This document shows, one piece after another, positions 41,644 through 44,774 of a stretch of 64,000 bases of DNA. The stretch is from Verrucomicrobiales bacterium (GTDB lineage Bacteria > Verrucomicrobiota > Verrucomicrobiia > Limisphaerales > UBA9464). The stretch's first letter is position 1. Every line of letters begins with the position of its first letter. The translations under genes and the position numbers were made by a program. The DNA lies in contig JAEUHD010000185.1 in the NCBI GenBank assembly GCA_016793645.1, positions 1 through 64,000 on the forward strand, in the 5' to 3' direction. The notes below the pieces were generated by a model, which saw nothing but the letters and a program-made list of their open reading frames with translations, had not been told where the DNA came from and searched no databases.

Positions 41644-42666
41644 TCAGTACGCCGCCTGCGCGCCCTTGAGGTTCTTCTTCTGCATCCAGGGCATGAGCGA
41701 GCGGAGCTTCGCACCGGTCTTCTCGATGCCGTGCTTCTCACCCGCGGCGAGCAGCGCGTTGTAGCGCTTGTAGCCGCCCTGGTACTCCTTGACCCAGTCC
41801 TTGGCGAACTTGCCGGTCTGGATGTCCTTCAAGGCCGCCTTCATCCGCTTCTTCACGGACTTGTCGATGATCTTGGGTCCGACGGTCACATCGCCCCACT
41901 TGGCGGTCTCGGAGATCGAGAACCGCATGCCGGCGATGCCGGACTCATTCATGAGGTCCACGATCAGCTTCAGTTCGTGGAGGCACTCAAAGTAGGCCAT
42001 CTCGGGGGAGTAGCCGGCTTCCACCAGCACTTCGAATCCAGCCTGCACCAGCGCGGACGCGCCGCCGCAGAGGACGGTCTGTTCGCCGAACAGGTCGGTC
42101 TCGGTCTCCTCCTTGAAGGTGGTCTCGATCACGCCCGCGCGGGTGCCGCCGACGCCCTTGGCCCACGCGAGGGCCGTCTTCTTGGCCTTCTTGGACGGGT
42201 TCTGGTACACCGCGATCAGGGCGGGCACGCCCTTGCCCTCGACGAACTGGCGCCGGACGATGTGGCCCGGTCCCTTGGGGGCGACGAGGATGACATCGAC
42301 GTCCTTGGGCGGGACGAGGGTCTTGAAGTGGACGGAGAAGCCGTGGCTGAAGAGCAGCGTCTTGCCCTTGGAGAGGTTGGGCGCGATGTCCTTGGCGTAG
42401 GCGGCCGCCTGCTTGGTGTCGGGCAGGGCGACGAAGATCACGTCGGCGCGGCGGACGGCCTCGGCGGTCGGGACGACTTCAAATCCCTTCTCGCGGGCGA
42501 CCGCGATGGACTTGGAGCCTTCGTAGAGTCCGATGATGACGTTGGCGCCGCTCTCCTTGAGGTTCAGCGCGTGGGCATGGCCCTGGGAGCCGAAGCCGAG
42601 AACGGCGAGGGTTTTGCCTTTGAACACGCCGAGATCGGCGTCCTTGTCGGTGTAGACTTTAGACAT
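41644..42666 (-). CDS. ilvC: Ketol-acid reductoisomerase
   Basis: A 340-residue class I enzyme that isomerises and reduces acetolactate or acetohydroxybutyrate with NAD(P)H in valine, leucine and isoleucine synthesis. The Rossmann loop is [17 protein letters not shown]. Downstream motifs are [24 protein letters not shown], here split as [10 protein letters not shown] and [11 protein letters not shown], and the metal-binding helices around [19 protein letters not shown] and ETAKWGDV. It is the last gene of the ilvH-MNT-HEPN remnant-ilvC run and ends at a strong terminator. ilvB is not in the window. Confidence 0.97.
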
Positions 42667-42720: not shown

Positions 42721-42873
42721 TCATGCCGGAGGATTCGGAGGCGTCCCTGCATTTGCAGCAAAATGTCCCTCCAGCGCTCGGATCAGGGCGGGAATGTCAT
42801 CCTGAGCGGTCTTCCAGACTCGCACGGGATCGCCGTCGCCATAGTCGTAGGGATAGGCATCATCCCGCGTCAT
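42721..42873 (-). pseudogene. HEPN (DUF86/HepT-like) gene with core deleted
   Basis: A 50-residue frame overlapping the end of the MNT gene by 14 bases, as HEPN genes normally do. It starts MTRDDAY, typical of HEPN proteins of MNT/HEPN pairs, then passes directly to PYDYGDGDPVRVWKTAQ and DDIPALIRALEGHF, which resembles their C-terminal helix. The central 60-70 residues of a normal protein, including the R-X4-6-H nuclease motif, are missing. The junction lies near codon 7-9. If translated, the product would be a tiny peptide without an active site. The remnant reading is inferred from family pattern. Confidence 0.65.
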
Positions 42874-43174
42874 ACAACGTCTCCGTCTTCTCCAGGATCG
42901 ACGCTTTGCGGTAGGGGTTCCGGCTCCGTTCCACTGCGTCCCGATCCAGAAGGTCCACCGGCCTTCCAAAAAGATCCTGGAAACCTTCGGTCAGGGCGGC
43001 CCATTCCAGAAGTTCCACCTCACGATCCCTTTCAGGACGCAACGTTGCCAGCAGGTCCACGTCGCTGTTCGGGCGGAAATTGTCACGGAGGACCGAGCCG
43101 AAGGCCTCCACCTTGGCGATGCCGTGCTGCTGGCAAAAGCGTTCCAGGGCCGCGCCGCTGTAACTGACGTTCAT
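42860..43174 (-). CDS. MNT-type minimal nucleotidyltransferase
   Basis: A 104-residue protein of the pol-beta nucleotidyltransferase fold with the GSxxR and D-x-D motif in AFGSVLRDNFRPNSDVDLL. In MNT/HEPN modules the MNT protein neutralises a HEPN ribonuclease, in known cases by AMPylating it. Here the HEPN partner is reduced to a stub, so the MNT is an orphan. It starts 20 bases after ilvH stops and lies between ilvH and ilvC, so it should be cotranscribed with them. The active-site residues appear intact. Confidence 0.9.
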   Translation of the reverse strand: MNVSYSGAALERFCQQHGIAKVEAFGSVLRDNFRPNSDVDLLATLRPERDREVELLEWAALTEGFQDLFGRPVDLLDRDAVERSRNPYRKASILEKTETLYDAG

Positions 43175-43194: not shown

Positions 43195-43668
43195 TCAGGA
43201 ACGGGGCAGGGCGACCTGGCCGGTGCGGGTGAGGTCCAGGATTCCAAAACCCTTCATCAGGGTGATGAACTTCTCGATCTTCCCTTCGCCGCCGGTGATT
43301 TCGATGGTGAGGCTCTCGGGCTGGACGTCCACGACCTTGGCGCGAAACAGCTCGGCCATCTGGGCCACTTCCGCCCGATTGTCGCGTCCGGTCCCCACCT
43401 TGAGGAGCACCAGTTCGCGGTCAATGAAATCGCCCTGCCGGTAGTCGATCACCTTCACGACGTCGATCAGCTTGTCGAGCTGCTTGACGATCTGCTCCAC
43501 GGTGGCGTCGTCCCCGCGGGTGACGATGGACATCCGGGACAGGCTGGGATCGTGGGTGGGGGCGACGTTGAGGGAGTCGATGTTGTAGCCGCGCCCGGAG
43601 AACAGCCCTGCGACGCGCGTCAGCACGCCGAACTTGTTCTCCACGAGGACCGAGATGGTGTGTCGCAT
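43195..43668 (-). CDS. ilvH: Acetolactate synthase small (regulatory) subunit
   Basis: A 157-residue protein from ATG 43668. The N-terminal ACT domain reads HTISVLVENKFGVLTRVAGL, with the usual FSGRGYNIDSLNVAPT; the second half has VELFR-like AELFRAKVVDVQPESLTIE and the GDFIDRELVLLKV segment. The subunit activates the catalytic subunit IlvB and carries valine feedback inhibition. ilvB is not adjacent, so the catalytic subunit must be encoded elsewhere. The upstream leader carries a branched-chain-rich peptide and a terminator. An in-frame extension to 43818 runs back through that terminator and is not used. Confidence 0.96.
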   Translation of the reverse strand: MRHTISVLVENKFGVLTRVAGLFSGRGYNIDSLNVAPTHDPSLSRMSIVTRGDDATVEQIVKQLDKLIDVVKVIDYRQGDFIDRELVLLKVGTGRDNRAEVAQMAELFRAKVVDVQPESLTIEITGGEGKIEKFITLMKGFGILDLTRTGQVALPRS

Positions 43669-43762
43669 GTGCTTCGAGTTCCGTGAATCGTACCGTTGTT
43701 TTGTTCGTGATGTCCCCCGGCTTCCGGGGACCGGTTCACGGTTCACGTGACCCCTCCCGGAA

Positions 43763-43789
43763 ATCGAAAACCCGCGGTTGAACCGCGGG
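43763..43789 (-). terminator. Candidate attenuator terminator of the ilv leader
   Basis: On the minus strand CCCGCGG-TTCAA-CCGCGGG is followed by TTTTCGATTT. It lies 37 bases past the leader peptide stop and about 95 bases before the ilvH start, where a transcription attenuator would sit. Just upstream, GCGACC (43821-43826 region) can pair with GGTCGC that abuts the terminator stem, a possible competing structure. Confidence 0.7.
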
Positions 43790-43825
43790 CGACCCGGGAG
43801 CCGGCAGAACAGGCCCAAGGTCGCG

Positions 43826-43879
43826 TCAGTCCCGTACGATCGGGACGACGCGGCCGAGTACCTTGCCTGCCGGAATCAT
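43826..43879 (-). CDS. ilv leader peptide (17 residues)
   Basis: A short frame reading MIPAGKVLGRVVPIVRD and a TGA stop. Seven of 17 residues are Val, Ile or Leu, with V-V and P-I-V close to the end. It lies about 160 bases upstream of ilvH on the same strand and directly before an intrinsic terminator. This is the arrangement of ribosome-mediated attenuation of branched-chain amino acid operons: stalling at Val/Ile/Leu codons when charged tRNA is scarce would favour an antiterminator. The ribosome binding site is weak. Translation is not proven from sequence. Confidence 0.75.
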   Translation of the reverse strand: MIPAGKVLGRVVPIVRD

Positions 43880-43967
43880 CAGGCCGGGACGCTACCGAAC
43901 GCCCGGAAACAGGGTCAACGGGTTTCTGAGTGTTGCGGGACGGGCCCGCTCAGGCTGAGATCTCCCC

Positions 43968-44774
43968 ATGAGATCCACCGTCGGGGCCCTGCTGCTCACC
44001 CTCGCCGTCCAGGCCGGAGCCCTCGCGGGATCGCCCACGCCGCTGCCCCGGGCGCACGCCCACAACGACTACGAGCACCCGCGCCCCCTCCTCGACGCCC
44101 TGGATCAGGGGTTCGCCAGCGTGGAAGCGGATGTGCATCTGGTGGACGGTAGGTTGCTGGTCGCCCACGACCGATCGAAGGTCCAGCCGGAGCGCACGCT
44201 GGAGGCGCTGTACCTGGATCCCCTCGCCGAGCGCGTCCGAACCAACGGAGGCTTCGTGTATGACCGCGCGACCGAGTTCACCCTCCTGGTGGACATCAAG
44301 GCGGATGCCGCGGGCTCGTACGCCGTCCTGAAGCAGCTGCTGGCGCGGCATCCGGCGCTGTACACCCGGTTTACCGACACCAATCGAACCCAGGGACCGA
44401 TCACCGTGATTTTATCCGGCGACCGCCCCCGGGAGATCGTGAAGTCCGAACCCTCCCGTCTCTGCGCCATCGACGGGACGCTCGCCGACCTGGACGCCCA
44501 ACCCTCGCCGTTTCTCGTCCCGCTGATCAGTGAATCCTGGCGACCCACCTTTGTCTGGTTCCGGGACGAGCAGATTCCCGAGGCGGATCGTCTCAAGTTG
44601 CGAAACCTTGTCACGCGCGCCCACCAGCAGGGCCGGCGCATCCGATTCTGGGGGGTGCAGGACCAGCCCTTTGTGTGGCGGGAATTGCGGGATGCCGGGG
44701 TGGACCTCATCAACACCGACCGGCTTGCCGATCTGAAGCAGTTCCTGACCGCCCCCACCAATCGCCACCGCTGA
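43968..44774 (+). CDS. Exported PI-PLC/GDPD-like phosphodiesterase
   Basis: A 268-residue protein with a signal peptide (VGALLLTLAVQAGALAG). The mature part starts with the active-site strand RAHAHNDYEHPRPLLDALDQ, followed by SVEADVHLVDGRLLVAHDR; the DxH elements and the HND pair match the uncharacterised PI-PLC/GDPD subgroup related to AIM6. The C-terminal strand DLINTDRLADL fits the TIM barrel. It probably cleaves a phosphodiester or lipid-linked substrate outside the cytoplasm. The second DUF1592 gene starts 47 bases downstream on the same strand. Confidence 0.85.
   Translation: MRSTVGALLLTLAVQAGALAGSPTPLPRAHAHNDYEHPRPLLDALDQGFASVEADVHLVDGRLLVAHDRSKVQPERTLEALYLDPLAERVRTNGGFVYDRATEFTLLVDIKADAAGSYAVLKQLLARHPALYTRFTDTNRTQGPITVILSGDRPREIVKSEPSRLCAIDGTLADLDAQPSPFLVPLISESWRPTFVWFRDEQIPEADRLKLRNLVTRAHQQGRRIRFWGVQDQPFVWRELRDAGVDLINTDRLADLKQFLTAPTNRHR

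Follow-up and report, generated by a model that had tools for sequence, protein, structure and literature searches.

The locus upstream of ilvN raises the question of whether a short open reading frame (ORF) and the hairpin that follows it form a ribosome-mediated transcription attenuator. Such an attenuator had been proposed from the letters alone (here called the sequence-only reading) within the window, by which we mean the whole 64,000-nucleotide stretch of DNA that was analyzed. The proposed 17-codon ORF is present on the minus strand and was read directly as MIPAGKVLGRVVPIVRD followed by a stop codon, with Val, Ile, or Leu at 7 of 17 codons, and the identification of the next gene as ilvH (ilvN) was borne out by its ALS_ss_C and ACT_AHAS_ss domains. 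The GC hairpin and the T-run were also found as described, whereas the distance from the stop codon to the hairpin, given as 37 nt, was counted as 36 nt. Conservation of the ORF, the spacing, the terminator, and the leader hairpin supports the proposed reading, and we assign a probability of about 0.9 to an attenuator that would control ilvN-ilvC by sensing charged tRNA-Val (possibly also Leu and Ile). The sequence-only reading had not noted the probable near-leaderless start, the GTA bias, or the separate ilvB and leuA leaders described below. The features on which this assignment rests are collected in Table 1.

Table 1. Positions of the putative attenuator, its promoter, its operon, and related features (window coordinates unless a locus is named)
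Feature	Position	Strand	Evidence or remark
-35 element TTGACC	43913..43918	minus	Conservation in relatives; below the consensus cutoff of the promoter scan
-10 element TAGCGT	43889..43894	minus	Conservation in relatives; implied transcript start about 43880-43884
Leader ORF MIPAGKVLGRVVPIVRD (then stop), 17 codons	43826..43879	minus	Val-rich class of 13- to 20-aa leaders; codon bias
Anti-antiterminator hairpin (1:2), CGCGUC-GUCCCG/CGGGAC-U-GACGCG, within the leader ORF end	43822..43852	minus	Fold; covariation
Antiterminator 5' strand (segment 2), GGACUG + GCGACC, spanning the leader stop codon	43819..43832	minus	Stalled folds; conserved pairing
Segment 3, GGUCGC-CCG-CGGUUC, antiterminator 3' strand including the terminator 5' arm	43780..43794	minus	GGTCGCCCGC nearly invariant
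Intrinsic terminator stem-loop (3:4), CCCGCGG(TTCAA)CCGCGGG	43771..43789	minus	Sequence; conservation
U-tract UUUUCGAUUU	43761..43770	minus	Conserved UUUU(U/C)GAUUU(U) in relatives
ilvN/ilvH, acetolactate synthase small subunit, first gene downstream	43195..43668	minus	Pfam PF10369, PF22629 (ALS_ss_C, ACT_AHAS_ss)
Nucleotidyltransferase-domain ORF (MNT-like), between ilvN and ilvC	42860..43174	minus	Pfam NTP_transf_2
ilvC, ketol-acid reductoisomerase, second gene of the operon	41644..42666	minus	Pfam KARI_N/KARI_C
Glycerophosphodiesterase gene, divergent neighbor	43968-44774	plus	
ilvB valine leader MNRTSPVVVLVAGGEAAAGTCRA (then stop) + terminator	L134:1253-1370 (G000:C98)		

The comparative evidence was drawn from 117 distinct ilvN upstream regions gathered from the genomes of relatives and from public contigs. 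In 55 of the 117, an intact leader ORF of 13 to 20 codons, usually Val rich near its end (for example, MFPVVQLVSVVAVLRD, MIPVDFLVGLVAPPVRD, MNLLISAVQVASVVVVD, MKLLASVLNVVRVVVVG, and MKFMALARSLVRVVVVVD), precedes a module of the form GGTCGCCCGC(R)GTTCC...GGGACGCGGGTTTTTGATTTT or a variant of it, with the near-invariant core GGTCGCCCGC...GCGGGTTTTT; about half of the sampled regions are without the module. The leader stop lies 31 to 39 nt from the terminator module (mean, 34.7; standard deviation, 1.9; one degenerate case included), and the length of this spacer is held while its sequence is not conserved. Because leaders were selected on their V/I/L content, that one statistic runs too high; no selection was applied to codon choice, promoter position, or covariation, and the spacing could vary freely between 21 and 48 nt. 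The expectation that relatives would keep both the peptide and the terminator was thus confirmed, with ORF, spacing, terminator, and leader hairpin all conserved. A covariance model searched against 245 genomes of the order matched 81 of them, each a single time and mostly with E values below 1e-7, and ilvN lies downstream at each of the best 30 of these loci (30/30). In a 289-genome sample of the phylum, besides the window's own match, five weak matches (E > 5e-4) were found, these five lying outside the order, and in the DNA fetched around them no ilvN was seen nearby. The element is not convincingly present elsewhere in the phylum.

One locus from the same genus (L002) is instructive. Its leader frame, MIPTGKAGRFRPKG, is degenerate and without Val codons, and only 3 bp of antiterminator complementarity are left; the terminator hairpin is still present. 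The joint loss of Val codons and antiterminator fits the attenuation model; the lack of a functional-looking leader also means that at least one relative can do without the attenuator. Separately, three loci without a leader (L012, L041, and L042) carry TTGACC...TTAnnTT and a short hairpin that reaches almost to the ilvN start, within the last ~70 nt; this hairpin is possibly another form of control.

The operon downstream is also widely shared, ilvN and ilvC being adjacent and codirectional in 95 of the loci examined. The gap between them is 532 nt in the window, compared with mostly 20 to 200 nt in relatives; the window's gap is widened by the nucleotidyltransferase-domain ORF.

The choice of synonymous codons in the leader was examined as well. 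The leader ORF reads ATG ATT CCG GCA GGC AAG GTA CTC GGC CGC GTC GTC CCG ATC GTA CGG GAC TGA. Among the Val codons of the ilvN leaders, GTA accounts for 103 of 259 (40%) and GTG for 27 of 259, whereas in ilvN itself at the same loci GTA accounts for 16 of 1,035 (2%) and GTG for 457 of 1,035 (Fisher's test for GTA excess, p about 1e-62); in the remaining genes of the window, the GTA share is 2%. In a published model of attenuation, sensitivity depends on the particular choice among synonymous regulatory codons (PMC1183508), and GUA is among the control codons of leaders in Corynebacterium (PMC11857589) and Mycobacterium tuberculosis (PMC13236596).

The consensus promoter scan called no promoter in this region of the window, and conservation was used in its place. 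In the listed relatives, TTGAC, TTGCC, or TTGCT sits 35 to 40 nt upstream of the leader start codon, and TAnnnT sits 12 to 17 nt upstream of it in nearly all relatives; the two elements are 18 nt apart in the window and about 16 to 18 nt apart in relatives. At nearly every locus, 7 to 12 nt separate the end of the conserved promoter from the leader start codon. From this position, transcription would begin about 0 to 5 nt before the leader AUG, with no space for a Shine-Dalgarno sequence, and the leader ORF is therefore probably near-leaderless.

Over 42 sequences, CCCGC:GCGGG of the terminator is nearly invariant and the stem is 92% paired; in the window, the stem is directly followed by TTTTCGATTT, and the 299-nt intergenic region has a folding z score of -3.25. 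The pattern TCGCCCGC-N6..36-GCGGGTTTT matches the 5.87-Mb genome once, at the ilvN leader locus, and matches of this type in relatives lie mostly before ilvN, a few lying elsewhere. The latter include five terminator-like copies in one genome (G053:C11:32862-33883, G053:C24, and G053:C34), of the form TCGCCCGCC...GGCGGGTTTT, which are apparently unrelated to ilvN. The exact terminator form of the relatives, with its GTTCC/GGAC upper stem, has no match in the window's own genome because the upper stem differs in this genus. In the window (43750-43799) and at L003, L004, L006, L009, and L011, the terminator lies within a further helix, CTCCCGG/CCGGGAG, which shows a paired change to CTTCCGG/CCGGAAG at L003 and L004.

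Two further helices were considered, the hairpin inside the leader (1:2) and the antiterminator (2:3). The inner four pairs of 1:2 covary over the 42 sequences, with 28 cells changed on both sides (0 of 500 shuffles); an outer extension of 1:2 over all families was set aside, as covariation gives it no support. The sequence-only reading had named GCGACC (43824-43819) and GGTCGC (43794-43789) as a possible competitor pairing. This pairing exists, its complementarity is conserved, and it reaches the terminator arm in the stalled-state fold. Full-alignment RNAalifold yielded only the inner leader hairpin and the base of the terminator, so the test of the antiterminator required its structure to be specified explicitly. 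Its GCGRCCTG:CAGGTCGC part is 84.6% paired, compared with 33 to 44% for slid partners, and only 35 of 2,000 permutations of partners did as well as its own. The helix is mostly invariant and its covariation is weak, not exceeding the shuffle control. Two loci left out of the alignment (L033 and L035) carry GCGATCTG:CAGATCGC as the antiterminator pair.

The leader was then folded in its alternative states, as the sequence-only reading had advised, with a ribosome footprint of the A-site plus 12 nt, and the expected alternative structures were obtained. For stalls at V7 to V15, 2:3 folds while the 3' arm of the terminator has yet to be made; with the ribosome at the stop codon, the 2:3 segment is covered and the full terminator forms; and with no ribosome, both 1:2 and the terminator form. 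The overlap between 2:3 and 3:4 amounts to 1 to 2 bp at the stem base and a weak 6-bp outer helix, and in minimum-energy folds six of the seven lower terminator pairs coexist with 2:3. The two helices must therefore exclude each other kinetically or at the base of the stem, and the proposed competition between antiterminator and terminator is the least certain step of the attenuator model. A similar partial overlap in the Corynebacterium glutamicum ilvBNC attenuator is said to allow fast, low-energy switching (PMC11857589).

The locus holds several of the parts by which ilv and leu attenuators are recognized: a leader ORF with many codons for the amino acids that the pathway makes, belonging to a conserved class with GTA bias; an intrinsic terminator, evident in sequence and structure, between that ORF and the structural gene; a leader-internal hairpin, supported by covariation, that would exclude the antiterminator; and a promoter upstream, assigned by sequence only, with a biosynthetic operon downstream. 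The putative antiterminator has conserved complementarity and a fitting geometry, together with weak covariation and a small overlap with the terminator. The analysis shows the parts, how far they are conserved, the codon bias, and the geometry; from these we infer a course of events running from transcript start through translation and termination to the response to starvation. RNA polymerase would start at about 43880 to 43884, practically on the leader AUG, and the 17 codons would be translated by a ribosome. When Val-tRNA is ample, the ribosome would reach the UGA and cover GCGACC, the terminator would form, and transcription would stop before ilvN. A ribosome stalled on a GUA or GUC codon would block 1:2, so that segment 2 could pair with segment 3 (GGUCGC...CGGUUC), weakening the terminator and allowing readthrough into ilvN and ilvC. 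With no translation, 1:2 would form and the terminator would stand.

Comparable leaders precede other genes of the pathway in the same genome. The ilvB gene is unlinked to ilvN, and its upstream region holds TTGACC..., an ATG, the leader MNRTSPVVVLVAGGEAAAGTCRA with its stop, and then ACCCACGGCTGGTGACGGCCGTGGGTTTTTTTT. The same kind of leader and terminator (...VVVLVxGGxAAxGTCRA) was found at 26 of 30 ilvB loci, where the stop-to-terminator distance is 20 to 22 nt and GTA makes up 60% of the Val codons. A leuA-like gene (G000:C362; L232/L236) is preceded by the leader MIRTENLRLTISALLLGGAGIGVG, a stop codon, and the terminator CCCCATCGCCGC...GGCGGTGGGGTTTTTT; several relatives have Leu-rich counterparts before leuA (for example, MTRSLNLRLTALALLLSCATVGV and MNRNPGLLLLSSALLLSCAAAGF), and others have none. 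Strong terminators with long U-tracts close the leaders of both ilvB and leuA, and no comparable leader was seen at ilvD. The match between codon and pathway, Val at ilvB and ilvN-ilvC and Leu at leuA, provides independent support for a role in amino acid sensing. Together with the layout kept in relatives, these leaders make it probable that a shortage of valine or leucine turns on ilvN-ilvC, ilvB, and leuA.

Other explanations of the same parts were weighed against the attenuator. It is unlikely, in our estimation, that the leader and terminator are real and that control is exerted mainly on ilvN translation or RNA stability, for example through a helix in the 5' untranslated region between terminator and start codon or through reinitiation. 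L003, L004, L006, and L021 do seem to share a further imperfect hairpin between the terminator and ilvN, and at L100, L119, and L128 the U-tract ends a few nucleotides from the ilvN start, with no clear Shine-Dalgarno sequence. However, the near-invariant GC stem and U-tract, at a fixed distance from the leader stop, meet the needs of an intrinsic terminator, and the terminators of the ilvB and leuA leaders point the same way. That ilvN is instead translated from an upstream start, making the region coding rather than leader, is barely credible: relatives begin at MRHT or MxRHT with no conserved extension, even though the frame is open from 43818 and contains an in-frame GTG preceded by GGGAGG.

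In favor of a chance frame, single sequences of this GC content yield Val-rich ORFs, and the minus strand of the window carries seven stops of leader-like ORFs. When both strands of the window were scanned by rule for a V/I/L-rich ORF of 12 to 22 codons followed by a terminator-like site, the 64 kb gave one joint match, which is this locus. A chance frame would not be expected to keep its peptide class, reading frame, stop position, and spacing across genera, and the GTA enrichment and the joint loss of Val codons and antiterminator at L002 likewise speak against it. As for the hairpin being an ordinary terminator or an element that binds a protein or ligand, the neighboring glycerophosphodiesterase gene is divergent and no credible minus-strand gene lies upstream, so that no upstream gene needs a terminator. 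Curated Rfam models run over the window gave a single tRNA as the only match, with no T-box or riboswitch at the gathering score, and with no Rfam match in the leader region a T-box or riboswitch identity was dropped. We regard the combination of a chance frame with such a hairpin as very improbable, more so than control of translation or stability and less so than an upstream ilvN start.

The attenuator reading, then, is of a textbook mechanism, and what is noteworthy is its extent across the order, the near-leaderless start, and the separate sensors proposed for ilvB and ilvN-ilvC. With it, classical ribosome-mediated attenuation would reach an order of Verrucomicrobiota that is represented here chiefly by metagenome-assembled genomes, and the reading predicts how valine and leucine are sensed in this group. 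It also offers some 80 natural versions of a single attenuator for the study of codon choice, spacing, and weak terminator/antiterminator overlap. Separate valine sensors on both acetolactate synthase subunits are an arrangement that we have not seen described. We give even odds to a broader picture, in which the order has a separate, lineage-specific attenuator at each of at least three unlinked BCAA loci (ilvB, ilvN-ilvC, and leuA), the leader of ilvN begins at or next to the 5' end of its transcript, ilvB and ilvN have independent valine sensors, and the ilvN module, with its unusually invariant terminator sequence, has an origin separate from that of the attenuators in proteobacteria and actinobacteria. 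The portion of the literature consulted on attenuation or leader peptides in Verrucomicrobia, Verrucomicrobiota, or Pedosphaera held nothing relevant; priority is uncertain in view of a 2010 comparative survey of attenuators cited in PMC10272879. By layout and proposed function, this is classical ribosome-mediated BCAA attenuation, for which we found no earlier report from this order in the literature consulted.

The enterobacterial ilvBN, ilvGMEDA, and leuABCD leaders combine runs of cognate Val or Leu codons, a stop codon shortly before the terminator, and competing hairpins. The window attenuator resembles them in its cognate codons, in the nearness of the leader stop to the terminator, and in its predicted competing hairpins; they differ from it in having an upstream ribosome-binding site and longer peptides. 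To our knowledge, Escherichia coli ilvIH is not attenuated in this way. The enterobacterial ilvBN (ivbL), ilvGMEDA, and leuABCD operons are listed as attenuators (PMC1183508). The Rfam ilvB-OMG motif (RF02919) and the Corynebacterium ilvB-II motif are RNA motifs that lie before ilvB and contain BCAA-rich upstream ORFs (uORFs) (PMC10272879), comparable with the BCAA-rich ORF of the ilvN leader; membership in ilvB-OMG was rejected, as the window's match, on the opposite strand, reached 11.5 bits where the gathering score is 95.9. M. tuberculosis ilvB1NC likewise has a BCAA-rich uORF, a GUA regulatory codon, a terminator, and an antiterminator (PMC13236596), and it differs in belonging to another phylum and in having ilvB1, ilvN, and ilvC in one operon. 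The C. glutamicum ilvBNC leader, MTIIRLVVVTARRLP, has 15 codons with consecutive Val codons, GUA among its control codons, and a +1 position one nucleotide from the leader start codon (PMC11857589). The proposed ilvN attenuator is like it in the Val-codon leader, the start near the 5' end, the three-hairpin switch, and the partial overlap of terminator and antiterminator (PMC11857589), and unlike it in peptide, hairpin sequences, and phylum, and in preceding ilvN-ilvC while ilvB lies elsewhere with a leader of its own. Leader translation and regulation, which were shown for C. glutamicum ilvBNC, are what we infer for the attenuator described here.
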